A DNA stretch of 64,000 nucleotides from DASRDR01 sp963812945 [NCBI: uncultured Candidatus Rokubacteria bacterium] (GTDB lineage: Bacteria; Methylomirabilota; Methylomirabilia; Rokubacteriales), in the NCBI GenBank assembly GCA_963812945.1, contig CAWEXD010000008.1:3410001-3474000 (forward strand), in the 5' to 3' direction. A model generated the notes under the pieces. It worked only from the letters and a program-made list of their open reading frames with translations. It did not search any database and was not told where the DNA came from. The first letter of the stretch is position 1, and every line of letters begins with the position of its first letter. The translations under genes and the position numbers were made by a program. This document shows positions 3,601 to 54,523 of the stretch, one piece after another.

Positions 3601-4192
3601 CCAGGCCGCTGTTCAGACCCTGGCGGACCTGGAAGGTCGTGGCGCGCGTGCGCTGCAGGCCTTCCTGGTAGTCCTCGAGGGCTCGGCGGATGCCGAGGGC
3701 GGCGTGCACCGCGCGCTGGGCGTGGTCCTCGTGGGCGATGGGGGCGCCGAAGAGCGCCATGATCCCGTCACCCAGGAACTGGTTGACGGTGCCCTCATAG
3801 CGGTGGACCTCGTCCAGCATCAGCTCGAGCGCGCGGCTCATGAGCCGATGGACATCCTCGGGATCGAGACCCTCGGAGAGCGACGTGAACCCCGACACAT
3901 CGACGAACAGGACCGTGACCTGCTTTCGCTCGCCTTCCAGCGCGCTCCGCGACGTGAGGATCTTGTCGGCCAGGTGCTTGGGCGTGTAGGCCCGGGGGGA
4001 CGCGAACTCGGGAGCCGCCTCTGCGCGCCCCAGCTGGACGCCGCAGCCGTGGCAGAACTTGTTCGCCGGCGGGTTCGCCGCCTGACAGGCCGGGCACAGC
4101 GTCTCGAGGCGGGTCCCGCACTCCCCGCAGAACTTCACCCCGGTCGGGTTGGCGTGGCGGCATCGCGGGCACGGGAACCGATCTTCCGGCAT
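668..4192 (-). CDS. class III nucleotide cyclase - AAA ATPase - TPR signalling protein
   Basis: A 1174-residue multidomain protein. Residues about 1-50 form a double zinc ribbon with four CxxC pairs. Residues about 85-270 are a class III adenylate/guanylate cyclase catalytic domain (LFVDVSGFTSLSE with the metal Asp, and GDGIMALFGAP). A STAND/AAA-type ATPase follows, with Walker A GEAGIGKS near residue 320 and a PQVMVYEDLHW Walker B-like strand. The rest, from about residue 700, is alpha-helical TPR repeats. This architecture is common in soil bacteria and usually annotated as adenylate cyclase; the ligand sensed by the TPR/ATPase part is not known. Cytoplasmic, with no membrane segment. It has its own promoter 40 bases upstream and no tight neighbour, so it is probably monocistronic. 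Confidence 0.9.
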   Translation of the reverse strand: MPEDRFPCPRCRHANPTGVKFCGECGTRLETLCPACQAANPPANKFCHGCGVQLGRAEAAPEFASPRAYTPKHLADKILTSRSALEGERKQVTVLFVDVSGFTSLSEGLDPEDVHRLMSRALELMLDEVHRYEGTVNQFLGDGIMALFGAPIAHEDHAQRAVHAALGIRRALEDYQEGLQRTRATTFQVRQGLNSGLVVVGSIGSDLRMDYTAVGDTTNVAARLQQVADRGQIIVSEATHRLVEDYFHTRFLGERALKGKAEPVGVWEVLSARQARTRLEVTAERGLTPYVGRERELRTLTELFDQAKAGAGQVVFLVGEAGIGKSRLLHEFRQRLGDEVTWMEGHCVSFGRSIAFHPVIDLLKRTFRVEEVDSEEVIARKVERSVLSLGEDLRPLVPYLRSLLGIDPGDATVAALDPRRRRAEIFDALRRLLVRASELRPQVMVYEDLHWMDQASEGSLPFTADSVPGHRILLILTHRPGYQHTLGDRTYHTRIALSALPPEASAEMARGVLATSRLPEGLPPLILGKAEGNPFFMEEVIKSLQEVGMLRRTGDDWVLTRRLDQVVIPDTIQDVIMARIDRLEEAPKKTLQLASVIGREFTRRLLDRIAEIRERTEDFLQELKALELIYEKALFPELAYMFNHALTHEVAYNSLLMQRRRELHRLIGHAIEELYVDRLSDHYEVLAHHFSRAEEWSRAMEYLAKAAEKATRAFAVREAVSLYGQALEAAAHLGAEVPVERRLAMHRAKAAQHFVLGEFAHAQAEGQRVLALAREAGDKVAEASALASIGFATLWAQDLDGALDYAGQAVAAARAAGAAAPLGSGYLTTGYIHALAGRFPQAQETLPLAVENAAAAGDTTNLSIALQLTSFLHSWQGEWGQAADVAAEALRIAREHGLLAPLIRGLWTQGVVLTGKGDYEAGQAAFEESLALGERVGDVNSIPRCQNSLAWLLSECGDYDRAIEMFNAAAERARKWPHAVGVEITAYCEVNRADVFLDKGDLTLAGEFLEQARRIVEDPATYPWMKWRYAMHLRISQAELALARGDAARAGEYARESLDIATRTNARKYLVRIWRLQGEIALARRQWAEAEHELRRSVAMAQAIGNPPQLWRSHAALGRLHAARKEADFARQAFGAGAAIVEAMKARLQHPNLRAGLERAPLIRELYSLSGNSQ

Positions 4193-4231
4193 GTGTTGTC
4201 TCTCGTGACGCGGATCGTTCCGGATGGCGGG

Positions 4232-4260
4232 ACTCTACAATGCCCCCCGCATCGCGTCAA
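4232..4260 (-). promoter_or_regulatory. sigma70-like promoter of the cyclase-ATPase-TPR gene
   Basis: On the minus strand TTGACG (4255-4260) and TAGAGT (4232-4237) are separated by exactly 17 bases. The -10 box lies 40 bases before the ATG at 4192. It matches the consensus well in an otherwise GC-rich intergenic stretch. Confidence 0.6.
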
Positions 4261-4324
4261 CGAAGCACCACGACGGATCGCGGAGAGGCGCGGCGGGCTC
4301 CGGCAGCCCGAGCCGCGCCGTCGA

Positions 4325-5683
4325 TCAGGCCGTCGGGGATGAGGCGCGATCGTCGAGGCGCACGACGCGGCGGGCCTTCAGCTCGTAGCGCGGGAGGGTC
4401 CGGGCGGGCACGGCGGCCACCTCGACGCGGATCCCGAGGTCGCGGCGGACCGCCTCGGCGACCCGGTCGACCGTGCCTCGCACGCTCTCGGCCGGCTCCG
4501 CGCTCCCGTCGATCTCCAGCACGAGCCGCACCTCGTCGAGCGCTCCGCGGCGAAACACCTCGATCTGGAACTCGTCCACGACGGCGAAGCGGCGCACGAT
4601 CCCCTCGAGCGCGGACGGGAACACGTTGACGCCGCGCACGACCAGCATGTCGTCGACCCGGCCGAGGATGCCACCCTCGAGACGCGCGAACGTGCGGCCG
4701 CAGGCGCAGACGCCGGTGGCCAGCCGTACTCTGTCTCCCGAACGGTACCGGAGGACGGGCGCGCCCCACCGGCCGAGGTTCGTGAGCGTCAGCTCGCCGA
4801 CCTCGCCGGGCGCGACGGGCCGGCCGCTCTCGGGCTCCAGCACCTCGACGACGAACTCCAGCTCGTTGACGTGGAGGCCCGCCTGCGCCGCGCACTCGAA
4901 CCCGTAGGCGCCCACTTCGGTCATCCCCGCGTGGTCGTACGTCCGCGCCCCCCAGAGCGACTGGAGGCGCTGTCGCATGGCCGGGATGCCGGCCCCCGGC
5001 TCCCCCGCGTGGACCGTCGTCCGGACACCGAGGGCCGCCGGGTCGATACCTTGGCCCCGGGCGACCTCGGCGAGGTGGAGCGCGTACGACGGCGTGCAGA
5101 CGAGGGCGGTGGCCCCGAGCTCCTGGATCGCGTGGAGCCGGGTCGCCGAGTCCTGACCGCCGCCTGGAATCGCCATCGCCCCGATCGTCCGCGCCCCCTC
5201 CAGCCCCGCCCAGAAACCGACGAAGAGCCCGAAGGAGAACGGAAAGAAGAGCCGGTCGCCGGGCCCGAGCCCCGCCGCCCGGAACACGAAGGCCCAGCAG
5301 CGGGCCCACCAAATCCACGACGCCTCGGTCTCGAGCCACCGGATCGGCCGCCCCGTCGTGCCCGAGGTCTGGAAGACGCGCACGTAGCGCTCGAGCGGGT
5401 ACGTCAGGTTGGTCCCGAACGGCGGGCGGGCGCCCTGGTCCTGGACCAGGTCCGCCTTGGTCAACCTCGGGAGGCGGGCGAAGTCCGGCCACGAGGCCAG
5501 GTCGCGCGGGTCCCGTAGGCCAGCCGACTGGAGACGCGCCCGCCAGAATGCATTCGAGCTCCAGACGTCACCCAGCCCCGCCGCGAGCCGCTGCCACTGC
5601 CAGTCCCGGAGGGCCTCGGGCGGTGCCGTCTCGCGCGCGCGGTCGAGAAACGGGACGTCGGCCTCCGCATCCGGGCGCATCAT
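4325..5683 (-). CDS. PaaK-family aryl-CoA ligase (phenylacetate/benzoate-CoA ligase-like)
   Basis: A 452-residue AMP-forming CoA ligase of the phenylacetate-CoA ligase branch. The ATP-binding loop QTSGTTGRP is at residues 106-113. HAGEPGAGIP and YDHAGMTEVGAYGFEC match the adenylate-binding motifs, and the C-terminal lid domain is complete. It would activate an aromatic acid with ATP and CoA. Its place at the end of a Box-type operon suggests benzoate or hydroxybenzoate as substrate, but phenylacetate cannot be excluded from sequence. The chosen ATG at 5683 is preceded by a GAGGGG ribosome site 7 bases away; a longer frame to 5719 would abut the preceding gene. Last gene of the minus-strand aromatic operon. 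Confidence 0.85.
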   Translation of the reverse strand: MMRPDAEADVPFLDRARETAPPEALRDWQWQRLAAGLGDVWSSNAFWRARLQSAGLRDPRDLASWPDFARLPRLTKADLVQDQGARPPFGTNLTYPLERYVRVFQTSGTTGRPIRWLETEASWIWWARCWAFVFRAAGLGPGDRLFFPFSFGLFVGFWAGLEGARTIGAMAIPGGGQDSATRLHAIQELGATALVCTPSYALHLAEVARGQGIDPAALGVRTTVHAGEPGAGIPAMRQRLQSLWGARTYDHAGMTEVGAYGFECAAQAGLHVNELEFVVEVLEPESGRPVAPGEVGELTLTNLGRWGAPVLRYRSGDRVRLATGVCACGRTFARLEGGILGRVDDMLVVRGVNVFPSALEGIVRRFAVVDEFQIEVFRRGALDEVRLVLEIDGSAEPAESVRGTVDRVAEAVRRDLGIRVEVAAVPARTLPRYELKARRVVRLDDRASSPTA

Positions 5684-17465: not shown

Positions 17466-18581
17466 TCACGCTCCGCGATCGAGGTCCTCGCGCCGATTGA
17501 TCCTCGGAATCACCTCGCGCGCCATCAGTTCCATGGAACGTCGCGCGAGCGCAGGATCGCTCCAGTCGTGGCCCGTATAGAGGAGCGTGCCGAACGCTCC
17601 GACCGAGCGCCGGAACGCGAGAATCTGCTCGGCAACGCTCTCCGGCGTGCCCGCGATCACGAGGCGCTCGAGGCATCGCCGCGGAGAAAGCTCGGCATCC
17701 GATTGTCCGGGGTGGTCTCGCATGACATCCAACGCCCCGGCGCTTGCCAGCTTCGTTCTCATCACGTGGAAATAGAAGCCATGCGCTCCGTCCGCCCGAT
17801 GCGCGTAGTCGCGGGCCGTCGCCTCGTCATCCGCCACGAAGACGCTGCGCGCCACGCGCCAGCCGAAAGGATCCGCGGAAAGGCCGGCGGAGCGACGACC
17901 TTGGACATACCCCTCGATATGCGCCCGGACGACGGGGGCGCCGACGTAGGTGGCGGAGATGCCGGTCCAGCCGCGGCTTCCCGCCGCCTGCGGGCCGGCG
18001 CCGTCCGGACGGATCGAAGTGATCGCGATCGGCGGATGCGGGCGCTGCAGCGGGCGTCCCGCGATGCCCACCCCGATCTGCGGGTTCAGCGAGCGCTCCG
18101 TCGTGGTCCGGTAGAAGTCGCCCGCGATGCGGTACGGCGGTTCTTCGCTCCAGATGCGGAGCATGTGCTCGATCGCCTCCTGGGTCTTGCGATTACGATC
18201 GGTGTCAAGGTCTCCGATCGCCTCGGCATCGCCGCGAACTCCTGCACCGATGCCAAGCACCAGCCGACCCTGCACGAGGTGATCGACCATCGCGACTTGC
18301 GCGGCGGCCATGGCCGGATGGTAGTTGGCCAGCGGGAGCACGCCGGTGCCGAACGTTATCGACGGACAGGCATCGGCCATGTGGGCGATGAACGCCAGGC
18401 TCGATGTGATGGTCTCGGCCGCGTCGAACAGATGCTCGCCGATGAACGCTTCACGGTAGCCGAGCCTGTCGGCCAGCACGACGGCGTCGCGGTCTTCGCG
18501 GAGCACGTCCGCGTAGCTCCGAGTCGGCGGGTGCACCGGCTGGATGAAGAAGCCGAGCCTGAGGGGATTGCGCTCTGTCAT
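17466..18581 (-). CDS. LLM-class F420/FMN-dependent oxidoreductase
   Basis: A 371-residue luciferase-like monooxygenase-family protein: LRLGFFIQPVHPP at the N-terminus, GEHLFDAAE, FGTGVLPLANYHP and LVLGIGAGV are typical TIM-barrel segments of this class. The cofactor (FMN or F420) and substrate are not predictable. The ATG at 18581 has an AGGAG about 9 bases upstream. It is preceded by a Val-codon leader peptide and an intrinsic terminator on the same strand (18626-18749). Its transcription therefore appears to be set by attenuation, which is unexpected for this enzyme class. Confidence 0.88.
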   Translation of the reverse strand: MTERNPLRLGFFIQPVHPPTRSYADVLREDRDAVVLADRLGYREAFIGEHLFDAAETITSSLAFIAHMADACPSITFGTGVLPLANYHPAMAAAQVAMVDHLVQGRLVLGIGAGVRGDAEAIGDLDTDRNRKTQEAIEHMLRIWSEEPPYRIAGDFYRTTTERSLNPQIGVGIAGRPLQRPHPPIAITSIRPDGAGPQAAGSRGWTGISATYVGAPVVRAHIEGYVQGRRSAGLSADPFGWRVARSVFVADDEATARDYAHRADGAHGFYFHVMRTKLASAGALDVMRDHPGQSDAELSPRRCLERLVIAGTPESVAEQILAFRRSVGAFGTLLYTGHDWSDPALARRSMELMAREVIPRINRREDLDRGA

Positions 18582-18625
18582 GCCGGGGTCTCCTGTTCCG
18601 CGGCGGTCGGCCAGGCGGGCCCCTG

Positions 18626-18660
18626 AAACAGAAAAGCCCCGCCGGCTTTGCCGACGAGGC
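18626..18660 (-). terminator. intrinsic terminator of an attenuator upstream of the LLM gene
   Basis: On the minus strand an 11-bp stem GCCTCGTCGGC/GCCGGCGGGGC with an AAA loop is followed by TTTTCTGTTT. It ends 45 bases before the LLM start codon. The 5' arm (18650-18660) is also complementary to sequence at 18682-18692, giving an alternative antiterminator fold (GCCGAC/GTCGGC plus GCG-TTGAAG/CTTCGACGC, about 15 bp). Confidence 0.8.
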
Positions 18661-18683
18661 GTCGAAGTTGGGTGCTTCAAGCG

Positions 18684-18749
18684 CTAGTCGGCGCAATCCT
18701 CCCGGACGACGACTACGACGACTCGCTGCCGGAAGCGCTTGATGGTCAC
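18684..18749 (-). CDS. valine-rich leader peptide of an ilv-type attenuator
   Basis: A 21-codon frame from GTG at 18749 to TAG at 18684 with six consecutive valine codons (codons 10-15, 18705-18722), ending 24 bases before the terminator stem. Codons 3-6 (CAAGCGCT, 18734-18741) are perfectly complementary to AGCGCTTG at 18678-18685. That gives the 1:2 pause hairpin expected of a classical attenuator, competing with the 2:3 antiterminator. Known ilv leader peptides have the same Val-run design. The downstream gene is an LLM oxidoreductase rather than a branched-chain biosynthetic gene. Translation is inferred from this architecture. Confidence 0.7.
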   Translation of the reverse strand: MTIKRFRQRVVVVVVREDCAD

Positions 18750-18755
18750 GCGCTC

Positions 18756-18764
18756 ACTATAGCA
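18756..18764 (-). promoter_or_regulatory. extended -10 promoter of the leader peptide
   Basis: TGCTATAGT on the minus strand is an extended -10 element (TGnTATAnT) ending 6 bases before the leader GTG. No good -35 box is seen. The start site would fall at or next to the GTG, implying a leaderless leader peptide. Confidence 0.45.
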
Positions 18765-18791
18765 CGCGATCAAGACATCCCTCTCGGTCGT

Positions 18792-19208
18792 CTATGCTCT
18801 CGTTCCCGGCCGCTGGGCGACGGAGGACGTGTTCAGTGCCACGGCAGCGCGAATGAGCGCCTTCAACGCCCTTTCATCAATCTTGTCGCCCTCGTGGAAA
18901 TCGATGGCACGTCTGGTGTTGCCTTCGAGGCTGGAGTTGAAGAGGCCTGAAGGGTCCTCCAGCGAGGCGCCCTTGGCGAAGGTCATCTTCACGACATTCT
19001 TGTACGTCTCACCGGTGCAGATCATTCCGGCGTGGGACCACGCCGGAACCCCTCTCCACTTCCACTCCTCGACCACTTCGGGGTCGGCTTCCTTGACCAA
19101 GGTACGGAGCCGGTTGAGCATCGTGCCCCGCCAGTCGCCCAGCTCCTTGACTCTCGCGTCTATCAGCCGAGCAGCAGACTTGCCGTTCTGCGACCCGCTC
19201 TTCCTCAT
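18792..19208 (-). CDS. DUF1801 (YdhG-like) small protein
   Basis: A 138-residue DUF1801/YdhG-type protein: LRTLVKEADPEVVEEWKWRG, GVPAWSHAGMICTGETYKN and VKMTFAKGASLEDPSGLFNS are the family core. Members are small cytoplasmic proteins related to frataxin-like folds; the molecular role is not established. The ATG at 19208 is chosen over a longer frame to 19298 because the family core begins shortly after it and GGAAGAG lies upstream. It lies 29 bases after the esterase gene on the same strand and is followed by the attenuator promoter. Confidence 0.8.
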   Translation of the reverse strand: MRKSGSQNGKSAARLIDARVKELGDWRGTMLNRLRTLVKEADPEVVEEWKWRGVPAWSHAGMICTGETYKNVVKMTFAKGASLEDPSGLFNSSLEGNTRRAIDFHEGDKIDERALKALIRAAVALNTSSVAQRPGTRA

Positions 19209-19237
19209 GCCCGTTTCTCTTCCACACGGCGTCCCGC

Positions 19238-20290
19238 CTACCGCCGGATACCGCGTCGTAAGGACTTCTCCCAAAATCGGATGGCTCGGTCTAGCCATCC
19301 TTCCGCGCTTGTACCAGTACCAGGACCGAAGCCATGACCGAGACCGTCGTATCGATGGAACTCCACGTCTGTGCCGGTCTTGCGCAGTGCCGCGACTCGC
19401 CGTTCCATGACAGACGGAGGGGCGATTCCATCCTGCTCGCCGACGACGGCAAAGGTGGACGGCTCGTTGGCCGCATACTCCGAATGGCCGGTGTAGGCCA
19501 TCACCACTGCCGACGGCTTGGGAAGGACGTCGCCTCCAAAACGCGCGACCCCGTGCGAGCCAATGGCGGCCGCCATTCTCGCTCCGGCCGAGCTACCCCA
19601 CAAGGAATAGCCCTGGACGCCAACGCCAAGCACTTGTGCGTTTCGGAACACATAAGAGACGGCAGCAGCGAGATCGCGCGTGGCAACCGCGCCGCCAGAC
19701 CCGGCGCGGTATTTCACCACGAACGCGTTGTATCCCTGCTTGCTGATCGCCACGGCATAGGGAAAGCCTTCATGGACGGAGCCGACATAGGAAAAACCTC
19801 CACCTGGTGATATGAGCGCAAAGGGGGCTCCGCGGGTCCCACGAAAGAAGAACAGGCCCGTGTTTGACTTCGTCCGCTGCTCCTTCGTCTCCTCCTCCGT
19901 GTAGAACTCGTAGAAGACGATCTTGCCATTGTTCACATCGTCAATCATGTGATTCAGCGCGCGGACCACCGTCCCGGGATCCACGTGGCTGTGATACGGC
20001 AGAAGGGAACCGACATCGCGCAGCCGCATGCTGTCGTCATAGGTGCGGTCATCCCACGGCAGGAGCAGCCGGCCGAAGCCGGCGAATGCTGGATGGTTCA
20101 AGAGATCCAGGATCGTGTCATCGGCGGTCAAATGCTCGCCCTTGCCTCTGCGTGTCTGTTCTTTCATGATCTCGCCGGCAGTGCTGCCTGACACCACGCG
20201 CTCGTTCGTCGCCCCCCCTGCGAAAGACGAAGCGAACAGCAACGAGAGCACTGCGGAGGTGAGCTGGGGCGCGGAGACACGCTTCGGCAT
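19238..20290 (-). CDS. secreted alpha/beta-hydrolase (esterase-like)
   Basis: A 350-residue alpha/beta-hydrolase. The first 27 residues look like a Sec signal peptide (basic MPKR, hydrophobic AVLSLLFASSFAG, small residues before the cut). The oxyanion loop SPGGGFSYVGS, nucleophile elbow GSSAGARM, acid GEQDGIAPP and His in GLGHGFGPG make a complete Ser-Asp-His triad in order. It resembles acetyl-xylan or feruloyl esterase-like BD-FAE hydrolases, but the substrate is unknown. Base composition is slightly less GC-rich than in the neighbours, so acquisition by transfer is possible. Confidence 0.82.
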   Translation of the reverse strand: MPKRVSAPQLTSAVLSLLFASSFAGGATNERVVSGSTAGEIMKEQTRRGKGEHLTADDTILDLLNHPAFAGFGRLLLPWDDRTYDDSMRLRDVGSLLPYHSHVDPGTVVRALNHMIDDVNNGKIVFYEFYTEEETKEQRTKSNTGLFFFRGTRGAPFALISPGGGFSYVGSVHEGFPYAVAISKQGYNAFVVKYRAGSGGAVATRDLAAAVSYVFRNAQVLGVGVQGYSLWGSSAGARMAAAIGSHGVARFGGDVLPKPSAVVMAYTGHSEYAANEPSTFAVVGEQDGIAPPSVMERRVAALRKTGTDVEFHRYDGLGHGFGPGTGTSAEGWLDRAIRFWEKSLRRGIRR

Positions 20291-48088: not shown

Positions 48089-49918
48089 ATGAAAGAGTTC
48101 GAAAAGAAGGCGAATCCTCCCCGCGAACCCGAGGGCGTCAAGGGCGGCGGCCTGTCGAAGTTCCTGCCGATGAGCGAGTCCGCCTACCGCCGCCGTCTGA
48201 CGGAGTACGAGATCCAGATCCAGGACCTCCAGGCCCACTCCCGGGCGCTGGAGTCCGAGGTCGTCCACCTCCGCAAGAAGCTGGAAGAAATCCCCAAGGA
48301 TTTTGTCGTCCTGGAGAACAAGCTGCGCGAGGCGAACCGCCAGCTGGTCCAGGCCTTCAATCAGAACGAGAAGCTCGTGAACACGCTGTACGAGGCGCGC
48401 GAGCAGATCTCCTCCCTGAAGGAGGAGGTCGACAAGCTGTGCGCGCCACCTTCCAGCTACGGCGTGTTCCTGTCCCTCAACGACGACGGCACGGTGAACA
48501 TCCTCTCGAGCGGGCGCAAGGTGAAGGTCAACCTGCACCCCTCGATCGGGAAGGACGCGATCAAGCCCGGCCAGGAGCTGGTCCTCAACGAGGGCCTCAA
48601 CGTCATCGAGACGGCGGGCTACGAGATCCAGGGCGAGGTCGTCATCATGAAGGAGGCCCTGGACGAGGCCCGCGCGGTCGTGACGGTGCGCGCGGACGAG
48701 GAGAAGGTCGCGGTCATCGCCGAGCCCCTCCGCCCGACCAAGCTGAAGGTCGGCGATCACCTCCTCATGGATGCGAAGTCGGGCTACCTCCTGGAGAAGC
48801 TGCCGAAGAGCGAGGTCGAAGATCTCGCCCTCGAGGAGGTCCCGGATATCCAGTACGAGGACATCGGAGGGCTGTCGACGCAGATCGAGGCGATCCGGGA
48901 CGCCGTGGAGCTCCCGTACCTCTACGCCGACTACTACCGCGAGCACAAGCTCGCGCCGCCCAAGGGCGTGCTGCTCTACGGCCCCCCCGGCTGCGGCAAG
49001 ACGATGATCGCCAAGGCGGTGGCCAACAATCTCGCCCAGAAGGTGTCGGAGAAGCGCGGGGAGAAGATCAAGGGCTTCTTCATGAACATCAAGGGCCCGG
49101 AGCTCCTCAACAAGTACGTGGGCGAGACCGAGCGGAAGATCCGCGAGATCTTCACGAAGGCCAAGGAGAAGGCCGCCGAGGACGTGCCCGTCGTGGTGTT
49201 CTTCGACGAGATGGACGCGCTCTTCCGGACGCGCGGCTCGGGGATCTCGTCCGACGTCGAGACGACGATCGTGCCGCAGCTCCTGGCCGAGATCGACGGG
49301 GTCGAGGGGCTCAAGAACGTCATCGTGATCGGCGCCTCGAACCGGCAGGACCTGATCGATCCCGCCATCCTCCGGCCGGGTCGGCTCGACGTGAAGATCA
49401 AGATCGACCGGCCGGACCGCCAGGCGGCGGCCGACATCATGGTCAGGTACCTCACCTCGGACATCCCGATGCACGAGCAGGAGCTCGAGCCGCACGGCGG
49501 CGACATCCAGGCGGCCATCACCCGGCTCATCGAGACGGCCGTCGACACCATGTACGCCACCGGGGACGACAACCGCTTCCTGGAGGTCACCTACGCGAAC
49601 GGGGACAAGGAGCTCTTGTACTTCAAGGACTTCGCCTCGGGCGCGATGATGGAGTCGGTCGTGCGCCGCGCCAAGAAGCTCGCCCTCAAGCGCTACATCG
49701 CGAGCGGCGAGAAGGGCGTGAAGCTCGACGACCTGGTGGCGGCGGTGCGGGAGGAGTTCAAGGAGAACGAGGACCTCCCCAACACGACCAACCCCGACGA
49801 CTGGGCCAAGATCGCGGGGAAGAAGGGCGAGCGCATCGTCTACGTCAAACCGCTCACGGGCGAGAGCAAGGACAAGAACCGGCCCGTGGAGCGCATGACC
49901 ACCGGTCAATACCTGTAA
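48089..49918 (+). CDS. mpa: proteasome-associated AAA ATPase (Mpa/ARC)
   Basis: A 609-residue hexameric unfoldase feeding tagged substrates to the 20S core. An N-terminal coiled coil (about 30-110) would bind a Pup-like modifier. Tandem OB domains follow (about 110-240), then one AAA module with Walker A GPPGCGKT near residue 298, Walker [10 protein letters not shown] near 370 and the Arg-finger region LRPGRLD. The extreme C-terminus is GQYL, the gate-opening motif of bacterial proteasomal ATPases. First gene of the locus, with its own promoter and a terminator-like hairpin after it. Confidence 0.97.
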
Positions 49919-49927
49919 GCGGAAGGG

Positions 49928-49966
49928 GTGAGGGGCGGAGGGCAGCGCTCCCCTCACTCCTTTTCT
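49928..49966 (+). terminator. intrinsic terminator after mpa
   Basis: GTGAGGGG (49928-49935) pairs with CCCCTCAC (49950-49957), followed by TCCTTTTCTG. It lies 10 bases after the mpa stop and 75 bases before dop, so it would separate or attenuate expression between the ATPase and the rest of the locus. Confidence 0.65.
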
Positions 49967-50039
49967 GTCGGTCGCGTCCCACCGGAGAGGCCCGCGGGCG
50001 GCGGCGGGAGCGGGTGACGCGAGCCGGCGCGAGGGCGGT

Positions 50040-51536
50040 ATGGCAATCCCGAAGGTGATGGGGATCGAGACCGAGTACGGGATCACGGTCCGGAACCAGC
50101 CGGACTTCAACCCGATCCTGTCCTCGCTCCTCCTCATCAACTCCTACGAGACGTACCGCACGGCCCGCATCCGCTGGGACTACGAGGCCGAGAGCCCGCT
50201 CAGGGATGCCCGGGGCTTCGAGTACGCCGAGGAGAAGGAGCTGCCGTCCAAGGAAGAGTCGCGCCTCATCAACCTCATCCTGCCCAACGGGGCCCGCTTC
50301 TACGTCGACCACGCCCACCCCGAGTACTCCACCCCCGAGTGCACGAACCCGCGGGACCTCGTGATCTGGGACCGGGCGGGCGAGCGGATCCTCGACCTCG
50401 CGCGCCGGCGCGCGGAGGCGGCGTCCCCGCCCGAGCAGCGCATCCTCATCTACAAGAACAACACCGATTCGAAGGGGAACAGCTACGGCACCCACGAGAA
50501 CTACCTCATGGACCGCCGGTGCCCCTTCACACGGATCGTGCAGCACCTGATGCCGTTCCTGGTCACACGCCAGATTTTCACCGGCGCGGGCAAGGTCGGG
50601 TCGGAGAACAACCTCGAGTACACCGAGTACCAGGTGTCCCAGCGCGCGGACTTCCTCGAGACGGAGGTCGGGCTGGAGACGATGCACTCCCGCCCCATCA
50701 TCAACACGCGGGACGAGCCGCACGCCGACCCCGAGAAGTACCGGCGCCTCCACGTCATCGTGGGCGACGCCAACATGTCCGAGGTAGCGAACTACCTGAA
50801 GGTCGGAACCACGGCGATCGTCCTGTCCATGCTCGAGGACGACTTCATCGACAGTGATCTCTCGCTGGAGAACCCCGTCCAGAGCTTCCGGGTGGTCTCT
50901 CGAGACCTCGCCTGCCGGGCGCCGATCCGGCTGCGGGACGGGCGGACCACGACGGCGATCGGCCTCCAGCGCGAGTTCCTGGAGCTGGCGCATCGCTACT
51001 ACCGTGACCGGGAGCTCGACACGGTGACCAAGGACGTGCTCGTGCGGTGGGAGTACGTGCTGGACCGGCTCGCCCAGGATCCGATGTCGCTCAACCGCGA
51101 GCTGGACTGGGTCATCAAGCTCGATCTCCTCGAGAACTACCGGGCGAAGCACGGGGTGGGCTGGACGGATTCCCGGGTGGCGATGATCGACCTCCAGTAT
51201 CACGACATCCGCCCGGGCAAGGGGCTCTACTACCGGCTCGAGCAGTCCGACGCGGTGGAGCGGATCGCGAGCGACGACGAGATCGTCCGCGCCGTCCACG
51301 ACCCTCCGCGCGACACCCGCGCGTACTTCCGGGGGATGTGTCTGCAGCGCTACTCCGAGGACATCGTCTCGGCCTCGTGGGACTCGGTCCTCTTCGATCT
51401 CAAGGAGGGGCCGCTCAAGAAGATCTTCATGCTCGAGCCGCTCCGGGGCACCGAGGCCATGGTTCGCCGGCTCTTCGACCAGTCGCCGACCGCCCGGGAC
51501 CTCCTCAAGAACATCGCGAAGCCGACCAGCGTCTAG
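50040..51536 (+). CDS. dop: deamidase/depupylase Dop
   Basis: A 498-residue glutamine-synthetase-fold enzyme of the Dop/PafA family. MGIETEYGITV carries the ATP/Mg Glu, followed by [64 protein letters not shown] and [28 protein letters not shown]...ASWDSVLFDL at the C-terminus is Dop-like rather than PafA-like. Dop deamidates Pup-Gln and removes Pup from substrates. It stands between mpa and prcB as in actinobacteria, but no pup gene follows it. Confidence 0.93.
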   Translation: MAIPKVMGIETEYGITVRNQPDFNPILSSLLLINSYETYRTARIRWDYEAESPLRDARGFEYAEEKELPSKEESRLINLILPNGARFYVDHAHPEYSTPECTNPRDLVIWDRAGERILDLARRRAEAASPPEQRILIYKNNTDSKGNSYGTHENYLMDRRCPFTRIVQHLMPFLVTRQIFTGAGKVGSENNLEYTEYQVSQRADFLETEVGLETMHSRPIINTRDEPHADPEKYRRLHVIVGDANMSEVANYLKVGTTAIVLSMLEDDFIDSDLSLENPVQSFRVVSRDLACRAPIRLRDGRTTTAIGLQREFLELAHRYYRDRELDTVTKDVLVRWEYVLDRLAQDPMSLNRELDWVIKLDLLENYRAKHGVGWTDSRVAMIDLQYHDIRPGKGLYYRLEQSDAVERIASDDEIVRAVHDPPRDTRAYFRGMCLQRYSEDIVSASWDSVLFDLKEGPLKKIFMLEPLRGTEAMVRRLFDQSPTARDLLKNIAKPTSV

Positions 51537-51595
51537 GCCCGGAGGCCGGGCCGGCGGGCGCGCCGGAAGGCGCGGCGTCCGGCGAGACCCGGCTG

Positions 51596-51601
51596 TATAA
51601 T
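51596..51601 (+). promoter_or_regulatory. TATAAT -10 box upstream of prcB
   Basis: Perfect TATAAT 21 bases before the prcB ATG, preceded by TG directly (TGTATAAT). No -35 is evident. It suggests a separate short-leader transcript for prcB-prcA-pafA. Confidence 0.45.
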
Positions 51602-51622
51602 CCCTCCACGGGCCACCCCCAC

Positions 51623-52441
51623 ATGCACGAGCCCTGGCAAGGTCTCTTCGGTCGCTCCGTGAACCGGAGCTTCGTGGACCTCCTCCGGCAGGAGGCGCCC
51701 GACTTGCTCGCCCCGAAGCTCGTCCCGAGCGCGGGGTCGCCGCCCGATGCCCACGGCCTGGCGGGGGTCCCGACGGGGACGACGATCCTCGCGCTGCGAT
51801 ACGCCGACGGTGTCATCATCGCCGGCGACCGGCAGGCCACCGAGGGCTACCAGATCGCCCACCGGCGGATCGAGAAGGTCTACAAGACCGACGAGCACTC
51901 CGCGGTGGCGATCGCCGGCGCGGCCGGGCCGGCGATCGAGATGGCCCGCCTGTTCCAGACCGAGCTCGAGCACTACGAGAAGGTGGAGGGCGACGGCTTG
52001 TCCCTCGAGGGCAAGGCGAACAAGCTCGGCCAGATGATCCGGATGAACCTCCCGATGGCGATGCAGGGCCTGGTGGTCGTGCCCATCTTCGCCGGCTACG
52101 ACGTGCGCCGCGCCGAGGGGCGGATCTTCAACTACGACGTCACCGGGGGCCGGTACGAGGAGACCAACTACGCGGCGACCGGCTCGGGTGGCAAGGACGC
52201 GCGCACCACGCTCAAAAAGGTGTACCGGACGGGCTCGTCGCGCGAGGAGGGGATCCGCTGGGCGGTCGAGGCGCTCGTCGACGCGGCGGAGGAAGACGTG
52301 GGAACGGGGGGCCCTGACTTCGTCCACGAAATCTTCCCGAGCATGAAGATCATCACCCGCGCCGGGTTCGAGGACGTGGCCGAGGCGGTCGTGCGGGCCC
52401 AGTGCGAGGCCGTGCTGGCGGCGCGACGCCAGGAGCGCTGA
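51623..52441 (+). CDS. prcB: 20S proteasome beta subunit
   Basis: A 272-residue catalytic proteasome subunit made with a 52-residue propeptide. Cleavage before Thr53 (in VPTG-TTILALRYADGVIIAGDRQAT) would expose the N-terminal Thr nucleophile. The Asp in GDRQAT and Lys in RRIEKVYK complete the active site. NYAATGSGGKDARTTLKK is the conserved Ser/Gly loop region. It precedes prcA by 4 bases. A shorter start is unlikely because the propeptide NRSFVDLL segment is typical. Confidence 0.96.
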   Translation: MHEPWQGLFGRSVNRSFVDLLRQEAPDLLAPKLVPSAGSPPDAHGLAGVPTGTTILALRYADGVIIAGDRQATEGYQIAHRRIEKVYKTDEHSAVAIAGAAGPAIEMARLFQTELEHYEKVEGDGLSLEGKANKLGQMIRMNLPMAMQGLVVVPIFAGYDVRRAEGRIFNYDVTGGRYEETNYAATGSGGKDARTTLKKVYRTGSSREEGIRWAVEALVDAAEEDVGTGGPDFVHEIFPSMKIITRAGFEDVAEAVVRAQCEAVLAARRQER

Positions 52442-52445
52442 CGCG

Positions 52446-53171
52446 ATGCCGCTCCCCTATTACGTGTCGCCCGAGCAGATGATGAAGGACAAGGCCGAGT
52501 ATGCCCGGAAGGGCATCGCGCGGGGCCGGTCCATCGTCGCCCTCGAGTACCAGGACGGTGTCCTCCTGGTCGCCGAGAATCCCTCCAACCTGCTCCACAA
52601 GATCTCCGAGATCTACGACCGGATCGCGTTCGCGGGGGTCGGCAAGTACAACGAGTTCGAGAACCTGCGGATCGCGGGCGTGCGGCACGCCGACCTGCGC
52701 GGGTACTCCTACCACCGCGAGGACGTGACCGCGAAGGCGCTGGCCAACGCCTACTCCCAGGCCCTCGGGAACATCTTCACCGAAGGGCTCAAGCCGTTCG
52801 AAGTCGAGCTGCTGGTCGCGGAGGTGACCGACCACGCAAACGGCAAGAACGAGATGTACCATGTCCTCTACGACGGCTCGATCGAGGACGAGCACAACTA
52901 CGCCGCAATGGGGGGGCAGGCGGAGGAGATCCGCCGATTCCTCAAGGAGCAGTATCGGGAGGGGGCCCCCCTTGCCGAGGCCGTCCGACTGGGGATCCGT
53001 TCGCTGACGGTCACGCAGAACAAGACGCTGACGGAACGCGACCTCGAAGTCGCCGTGCTCGACCGACAGCGCGATCGCCGGAAGTTCCGGCGCGTCGCGA
53101 ATGGCGAGCTGCGCGCGATCCTCGGGCGTCCCGACCCGCCAGAGGGCGGCCGGCCCATGGGGACGTCATGA
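52446..53171 (+). CDS. prcA: 20S proteasome alpha subunit
   Basis: A 241-residue alpha subunit that forms the outer rings and the gate. [27 protein letters not shown] is the gating N-terminus, with [43 protein letters not shown] and [18 protein letters not shown] following. The C-terminal extension beyond the fold is Arg-rich. Its stop overlaps the pafA start (ATGA), so core particle and ligase are translationally coupled. Confidence 0.96.
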
Positions 53172-54523
53172 AGCGTCGCATCTTCGGGCTCGAGAACGAG
53201 TACGGGCTGACCTGCACGCTGAACGGCCAGCGCCGGCTGTCCCCCGACAACGTCGCGCGCTACCTGTTCGAGAAGGTCATTCCGGGCGCCCGCAACGCCA
53301 ACGTGTTCCTGGAGAACGGCGCCCGCCTCTACCTCGACACCGGGTTCCATCCCGAGTACGCGACACCCGAGTGCGACGACGTCATGGACCTCGTCGTCTA
53401 CGACAAGGCCGGCGAGCGGATCGTGGAGGATCTCCTGCACCAGGCGGAGAAGCGGCTCCGCGAGGACGGGATCTCGGGCAACATCCTCCTCTTCAAGAAC
53501 AACACCGACTCCGCCGGCAACTCGTACGGGTGCCACGAGAACTACCTGGTGTCGCGCGACGTCTCGTTCCAGCGGCTCGCCGAGGCCCTGATCCCGTTCT
53601 TCGTGACGCGCCAGATCTTCGCGGGCGCCGGCAAGGTGCTCCAGACGCCGCGGGGCTTCCACTACTGCCTCTCGCAGCGCGCCCAGCACATCTGCCAGGA
53701 GATCTCGGGCGCGACGACGTCGTCCCGCTCCATCATCAACACGCGCGACGAGCCGCACGCGGATGCCGAGAAGTACCGGCGGCTCCACGTGATCGTCGGC
53801 GACTCGAACATGTCGGAGGTCGCGACCTATCTGAAGGTCGGCACCACCGCCGTGGTGCTGGACATGATCGAGGACGGCTACTTCGACCGGGACTACAGCC
53901 TCCAGTCACCGGTCCAGGCCATCCGGGACATCTCCCACGACCCCGGGCTCCGTGAGACGGTGAAGCTGAAGGACGGGCGGGCCTTGACCGCCCTCGAGAT
54001 CCAGAAGGAGTACCTGGAGGCCTGCCTGACGTACGCGCAGCACGTCGACGCCGACCCGATCACGCGGGACATCCTGGACCGCTGGACCGACATGCTGACC
54101 CGGCTCGAGACCGATCCCGCCCAGTGCGACCGCGAGGTCGACTGGGTCATCAAGCGCCAGGTGATCGAGGACTACATGGCGAAGCACCGCCTGTCGTGGC
54201 GGGACCCCCGGGTGTCCCTGATCGACCTCCAGTACCACGACATCCGGCCCTTCAAGGGCGTCTACTACCTCCTCGCGCGGAACGACCGCGTGGACCGGAT
54301 GGTGCGCGACGAGCAGGTGGAGCAGGCCAAGCACACGCCGCCCCAGACGACCCGCGCCCGGCTCCGCGGAGAGTTCATCCGCCGCGCGAACCTCAAGGGC
54401 AAGGACTACCGGGTCGACTGGGTCTACCTGAAGCTGAACGACCCCGAGCGCGAGACCATCCTCTGCAAGGACCCGTTCCAGGCCCACGACGAGCGGGTCG
54501 AGCGCCTGATCCGGTCGTTCTAG
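53168..54523 (+). CDS. pafA: Pup-protein ligase PafA
   Basis: A 451-residue ligase that joins the C-terminal Glu of a Pup-like modifier to substrate lysines. [11 protein letters not shown], the [17 protein letters not shown] segment, [71 protein letters not shown] and [11 protein letters not shown]...DWVYLKLND match mycobacterial-type PafA along the whole length. Coupled to prcA. A short hairpin (54526-54557) follows in the gap before the convergent glycosyltransferase. Confidence 0.95.

Follow-up and report, generated by a model that had tools for sequence, protein, structure and literature searches.

A short leader on the minus strand of a 64,000-nucleotide stretch from the uncultured Candidatus Rokubacteria bacterium DASRDR01 sp963812945 (contig CAWEXD010000008.1, positions 3,410,001 to 3,474,000; hereafter the window) is probably an attenuator of transcription that works through the ribosome and responds when valine codons are decoded slowly; it is placed before a gene for an LLM-class flavin oxidoreductase. 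This assignment was derived from sequence comparison and modelled RNA folds. Leader and LLM gene also appear to travel together between distant bacteria as one unit. The gene proposed to be regulated occupies 17466..18581 (-) and was assigned to the Bac_luciferase family (Pfam PF00296, E 3.8e-43), in agreement with the original prediction, which had named an LLM-class gene and no known branched-chain gene.

The leader open reading frame (ORF) lies at 18684..18749 (-) and was read directly from the DNA as VTIKRFRQRVVVVVVREDCAD. It comprises 21 codons and a stop, starting with GTG at 18749 and ending with TAG at 18684. Its six consecutive Val codons (18705..18722 (-)), the putative regulatory codons and segment 1 of the switch, form the sole run of at least five Val in all six reading frames of the 64 kb window. 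A short ORF carrying a run of regulatory codons is what this class of attenuator requires; its translation is predicted.

Three alternative pairings were obtained from predicted folds and from the comparison of copies described below. In the pause hairpin (1:2; 18682..18722 (-)), the Val codons are paired with the last codons of the ORF and its stop region. Segment 2 (18675..18692 (-)) forms the 5' half and segment 3 (18650..18667 (-)) the 3' half of the antiterminator, and segment 3 overlaps the 5' arm of the terminator hairpin (3:4; 18636..18660 (-)), which was also found by the terminator scan. The T-rich tail behind this hairpin, TTTTCTGTTT (18626..18635 (-)), was scored as part of a terminator by the scanner. 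The region 18600-18780 as a whole folded better than 200 of 200 shuffles (z -3.0).

Most of this layout had been claimed in the original prediction. Its ORF of 21 codons, six consecutive ones of them for Val, followed by a terminator and T tract, was confirmed by direct reading and by the scanner score. Its antiterminator (18692-18675 with 18667-18650) was returned as the predicted fold when the Val run was masked and the 3' arm of the terminator was absent, and its 11-bp terminator was recovered at 18660-18636. The pause hairpin had been placed between CAAGCGCT (18741-18734) and AGCGCTTG (18685-18678); these are complementary, but the pairing was absent from the predicted folds. The CAAGCGCT region precedes the Val run, where the leader is poorly conserved; the pause hairpin that is conserved uses the Val codons themselves, as given above.

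Orthologues were collected by a genome-collection scan with the LLM protein, which relies on short peptide word matches and so reaches close relatives only. Five were found, at 80-84% identity and in four phyla: in a Nostoc metagenome-assembled genome (MAG; L001), Scytonema (L002), a Betaproteobacteria MAG (L003), Planctomycetota (L004) and a Myxococcales MAG (L005). The genomes of the last three are referred to as G003, G004 and G005. The leader was present in two of the five, L003 and L005, and absent from L001, L002 and L004. A Val run in orthologues, as the original prediction had anticipated, was thus found in part.

In L003 and L005 the leader ORFs read MRTVQRSVVVVVVREDRAG and MRSEAMQQRSVVVVVAREGRAD, respectively, and the runs of the three copies hold five to six Val codons. 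The stop codon is TAG or TAA at an unchanged position, and the residues preceding the run differ between copies. GTG was used for none of the 17 Val codons of the three runs, whereas it accounts for 34 of 77 Val codons in the three LLM genes; constraints from pairing could account for its avoidance just as well as tRNA choice. Val run, reading frame, stop and alternative pairings all recur in L003 and L005 despite different upstream surroundings.

For the folding tests, the position of the ribosome was mimicked by masking RNA, with the 3' arm of the terminator not yet made. The values below refer to the window, L003 and L005, in this order. A ribosome placed in the Val run left the 5' arm of the terminator paired upstream, with segment 2, at mean probabilities of 0.84, 0.71 and 0.78. 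With the ribosome at the stop codon, the upstream pairing was 0.41, 0.01 and 0.01, and without a ribosome it was 0.41, 0.00 and 0.40; the residual 0.41 in the window corresponds to a small local hairpin. In both of these states the complete terminator then formed.

As a control, the stretch from Val run to terminator was dinucleotide-shuffled 400 times per copy. The contrast between the stalled state and the higher of the two other states was matched by 3.25%, 0% and 1% of the shuffles. In all three copies, mutually exclusive 1:2, 2:3 and 3:4 pairings are predicted, with a stall at the Val codons freeing segment 2. Competing-structure folding, which the original prediction had put forward, thus gave the logic of attenuation in each copy, and the claim of control by ribosome position was supported by masking folds and by sequence constraint in three diverged copies.

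The constraint was measured from the Val run through segment 2, where 40, 39 and 38 of 45 columns were identical in the pairwise comparisons (84-89%). Fourfold-degenerate sites of the LLM gene, taken where the first two bases agree, were identical at 0.53, 0.47 and 0.62, so that the core exceeded them with binomial probabilities of 3e-7, 3e-8 and 9e-4. The leader before the Val run was less conserved, with 9/18 identical positions between window and L003, 16/27 between window and L005 and 16/21 in the remaining pair. Pairing cells were kept at 86.7% in the pause hairpin, 84.4% in the antiterminator and 95.2% in the terminator; slid versions of these stems reached at most 57.1%.

The start of the transcript is suggested by an extended -10-like element, TGCTATAGT, at 18756..18764 (-). 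The motif TGnTAnnnT stands 6 nucleotides (window) or 7 nucleotides (L003, L005) before the leader start codon, a placement reached by base shuffling with a chance of 0.2-0.6% per copy. The -35 region upstream of it is poor, and no promoter was called by a consensus scanner in the leader regions of the window, L003 or L005. Judged from the position of the -10 element, the transcript would begin at or next to the start codon, and the leader ORF would be leaderless.

We infer the start and termination of transcription, the stalling, the response to valine and the role of the enzyme. RNA polymerase would start at the leader start codon or just ahead of it. A ribosome that passes the Val run and reaches the stop would cover segment 2, the terminator would form and transcription would end before the LLM gene. 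Without a following ribosome, the Val codons would pair with segment 2 and the terminator would likewise form. When charged Val-tRNA is short, the ribosome would stall in the Val run and leave segment 2 free; segment 2 could then pair with segment 3 while segment 4 has yet to be transcribed, and the polymerase would go on into the LLM gene.

Several results weigh against this mechanism. The main weakness is at the terminator, whose hairpin is conserved but whose tails in L003 and L005 are T-poor; the scanner called no terminator at either leader. In the fully transcribed RNA at equilibrium, the terminator beat the antiterminator in the window and L005, though not in L003, and because of this the switch needs co-transcriptional kinetics. 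The stalled state minus the stop state was matched by 16.75%, 0.25% and 0.5% of the shuffles, and the stalled value alone by 6.5%, 9.75% and 3.5%. When the core was compared with the whole LLM gene, itself under coding constraint and identical in its DNA at 0.79, 0.76 and 0.84 of positions, the excess was not significant at the 5% level (0.067, 0.060 and 0.57).

The same holds for covariation, which, like conservation, was assessed in three copies. The original prediction had counted on compensatory changes in the three stems, and one pair changed on both sides was indeed found in each. Column shuffles, however, reached the observed number in 177, 308 and 180 of 500 cases for pause, antiterminator and terminator, respectively. 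Two slid versions of the antiterminator had two both-sided pairs against one, and one of them had a higher covariation score. Because three sequences fail to beat column shuffles and slid antiterminators show more such changes, covariation is compatible with the stems and no proof of them.

A further point against the proposal is that the LLM protein matched no branched-chain family in Pfam or among the best 25 of 29 NCBIfam models, and the link of the enzyme to valine metabolism that the original prediction had suggested was not found, though it may exist. Attenuators with runs of amino-acid codons are known mainly from genes of amino-acid synthesis and charging. The genes concerned usually make, charge or transport the cognate amino acid, which is not strictly part of the mechanism.

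The proposed mobility of the unit was examined through its flanks. In L005, two attC-like repeats flank the leader and LLM gene, and a gene read from its ORF as GNAT-like lies between the second and a third. The bottom-strand folds of these repeats gave z -2.44, -3.79 and 0.21, so that two of the three fold well, and the L005 unit looks like an integron cassette from its sequence. In L003, short complementary ends were found before (GTTAGGTGCC) and behind (GGCACCTAAC) the unit, folding no better than shuffles (z -0.40). Complementary ends of this kind are expected of a cassette from the attC consensus. Just upstream of the L003 unit, at 4150-4450, lies what we take to be an IS110-type transposase-like fragment.

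In the window, attC-like flanks were not seen by eye at the ends of the unit, and the 64 kb held no match to an attC of the L005 type within 3 mismatches. Integron integrase (TIGR02249) was found above its curated cut-off in three of the five relatives (G003, G004 and G005), on contigs other than that of the LLM gene; it exceeded the cut-off in none of 14 controls, all of which matched below it. Since the attC evidence is mixed, with repeats in L005, a weak site in L003 and bare flanks in the window, the unit is called mobile and cassette-like and not a proven cassette. Leader and LLM gene would pass jointly from one bacterium to another, and at least one relative seems to carry them as an integron cassette.

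The distribution of the leader is directly observed. In a tree of 10 proteins, presence of the leader required a single change, which held in 54% of bootstrap trees only, and the three leaderless copies are 90-98% identical to each other; therefore, one gain or one loss of the leader is possible. By eye, L001, L002 and L004 resembled the leader-bearing copies only over a short piece of DNA just ahead of the start codon. The two cyanobacterial copies, L001 and L002, have near-identical LLM genes (protein 98% identical) with G+C above that of their surroundings by eye and about 60 shared bases upstream only. This looks like transfer without the leader.

The LLM protein was found in 1 of 188 genomes from the phylum of G005 (E <= 1e-80), and in 4 of 369 from the class of G003 and 1 of 294 from the phylum of G004 (E <= 1e-85). 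Beyond the known copies, only proteins of 38-48% identity were found, and no Val leader was seen by eye in the 450 bases upstream of their genes. The nearest of these outside relatives, L061 (G1069) and L062 (G855), are 47-48% identical and lie directly behind a gene read from its ORF as an EamA-type-exporter-like one. Among plasmids, the LLM protein search gave 508 records, all below 60% identity (best 46%), and the search with leader DNA gave 23 records with short matches, none covering 80%. Viral contigs held no relative of the LLM protein. They had 13 stretches with the Val-run pattern, none with the leader layout by eye; in the closest, L008, a short Val ORF was present and a terminator hairpin was not seen.

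In the phylum of G003, the Val-run pattern occurred in 1 of 299 genomes, G003 itself, and a reversed control matched in 2. A covariance model of the leader (R1), applied to sets of 300, 188 and 294 genomes, scored 155.1 bits in G003 and 168.5 bits in G005; the other 26 matches scored at most 34.7 bits. Of these, 11 were inspected by alignment or sequence and 15 were scanned for Val or Val/Ile/Leu runs within 130 bases, and none was a short Val leader. L055 (VVVVV) and L051 (VIVII) were rejected as Val leaders, their frames running on, as was L071 (LLVLVV), with a frame that has no stop before its hairpin. An Rfam search of 18000-19500 gave two matches at chance level (E up to 1), neither of which lies in the leader.

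A fuller account of why such a switch might stand before such a gene can be given tentatively, although we consider it rather unlikely in this specific form. The unit would be a mobile cassette with its own sensor of Val-tRNA starvation; its flavin monooxygenase would remove a compound that starves the cell of valine, the damage being the inducer. That compound may inhibit branched-chain synthesis or valyl-tRNA synthetase, or it may be an analogue of valine.

The same switch could also serve inducible resistance in the manner of cmlA, with the ribosome stalled by a drug or toxin that targets either the ribosome itself or the charging of Val-tRNA and that the LLM enzyme removes. The cassette-like location in L005 and the horizontal spread suit this explanation, as do the nearest solved relatives of the enzyme, which are monooxygenases (first 3,6-diketocamphane 1,6-monooxygenase, 4uwm, E 1.6e-22). 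The available portion of one paper also describes cmlA as a cassette that brings its own promoter and is subject to leader-peptide attenuation (PMC8876359). The conserved feature, however, is a pure Val run, which points to amino-acid supply, and the residues before it vary. Pfam and NCBIfam gave no match to a resistance family, a dedicated resistance library lying outside the search, and the LLM protein reached no NCBIfam cut-off among the best 25 of 29 models. A drug or toxin as the cue is thus judged unlikely.

The leader might instead govern how accessible the Shine-Dalgarno site of the LLM gene is, and not termination. The weak T tracts of two copies would fit such translation attenuation, and a hairpin lies near the Shine-Dalgarno site in all three; in the window, the Shine-Dalgarno-like CAGGAGAC (18588..18595 (-)) is partly within this further hairpin. 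When segment 4 was freed, however, the predicted access did not rise, changing from 0.40 to 0.05, from 0.18 to 0.13 and from 0.38 to 0.38 in the three copies, which makes this explanation quite improbable.

The original prediction had also considered a displaced attenuator, here taken as one of ilv type whose position before the LLM gene would be accidental. Runs of branched-chain codons are indeed typical of ilvB leaders, as far as the accessible text of two studies goes (PMC10272879, PMC1262725). This origin is nevertheless disfavoured and very improbable, because three unrelated genomes have the leader before the same LLM gene, with constraint above that of fourfold sites, and because by eye no Val-run leader is present in the 700 bases upstream of ilvB in either G003 or G004. 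Model R1, moreover, found no other Val leader in the genomes searched. The ilvB of G003 is cut by the contig end and hence falls below the cut-off, and some 460 bases upstream of it a long open frame contains the residues IVVIV; in G005, no ilvB was found above the cut-off.

A plain terminator with a chance ORF in front is hardly credible: a DUF1801 gene on the same strand does end upstream, at 18792, but Val run, frame, stop (TAG/TAA) and pairings recur in two genomes with other upstream surroundings.

Elsewhere in the window, at 48089-54523, lie ORFs that we take to resemble a proteasome ATPase, Pup ligase/deamidase-like proteins and a proteasome subunit. To our knowledge, such genes are unusual outside a few bacterial phyla.

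If the Val-cued attenuator before the LLM gene is real and travels with it across phyla, genes that spread horizontally can carry a complete starvation sensor along and do without any regulator of the host. A testable lead to the substrate of the LLM enzyme would follow as well, as something tied to valine supply. A Val leader before an LLM gene was not named in literature listings, full texts aside, and no paper was found that joins an integron or gene cassette with the LLM class or luciferase-like monooxygenases; most subscription journals lay outside the coverage of both searches.

The closest known counterparts are the Corynebacterium ilvB-II, ilvB-OMG and ilvB motifs, upstream-ORF attenuators before ilvB or ilvBNC (PMC10272879). 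According to the part of that paper available, they share with the window leader a short ORF rich in branched-chain codons and terminator/antiterminator alternatives before a gene, and one motif has at least three consecutive Val codons, resembling the run in the window. Unlike them, the window leader precedes an LLM oxidoreductase and not acetolactate synthase, has a Val-only run and is covered by no Rfam family. The candidate ilvB leaders of actinobacteria are likewise described, in the accessible sections, with runs of Ile/Val/Leu codons and terminator hairpins, but before a biosynthetic operon and with a mode of regulation called unclear there (PMC1262725). In these portions of the work on ilv attenuation, the regulated genes are biosynthetic or charging ones (PMC10272879, PMC1262725).

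The trpL/rnTrpL leader of Sinorhizobium meliloti is similar in that its transcript starts with the leader start codon, as would be the case here from the position of the -10 element. It differs in its Trp codons, its target trpE(G) and, in the excerpt available, a peptide and RNA that also act in trans (PMC7298713). Literature searches on integrons with attenuation and leader peptides led to the cmlA and aminoglycoside cases, the former seen in part (PMC8876359). As is proposed for the LLM unit, cmlA moves as a cassette and brings along a promoter and a leader peptide; it relies on translation attenuation via stalling by chloramphenicol, whereas the window leader has Val codons and a terminator (PMC8876359, same portion). 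What would be new relative to known attenuators is the regulated gene and its travels.
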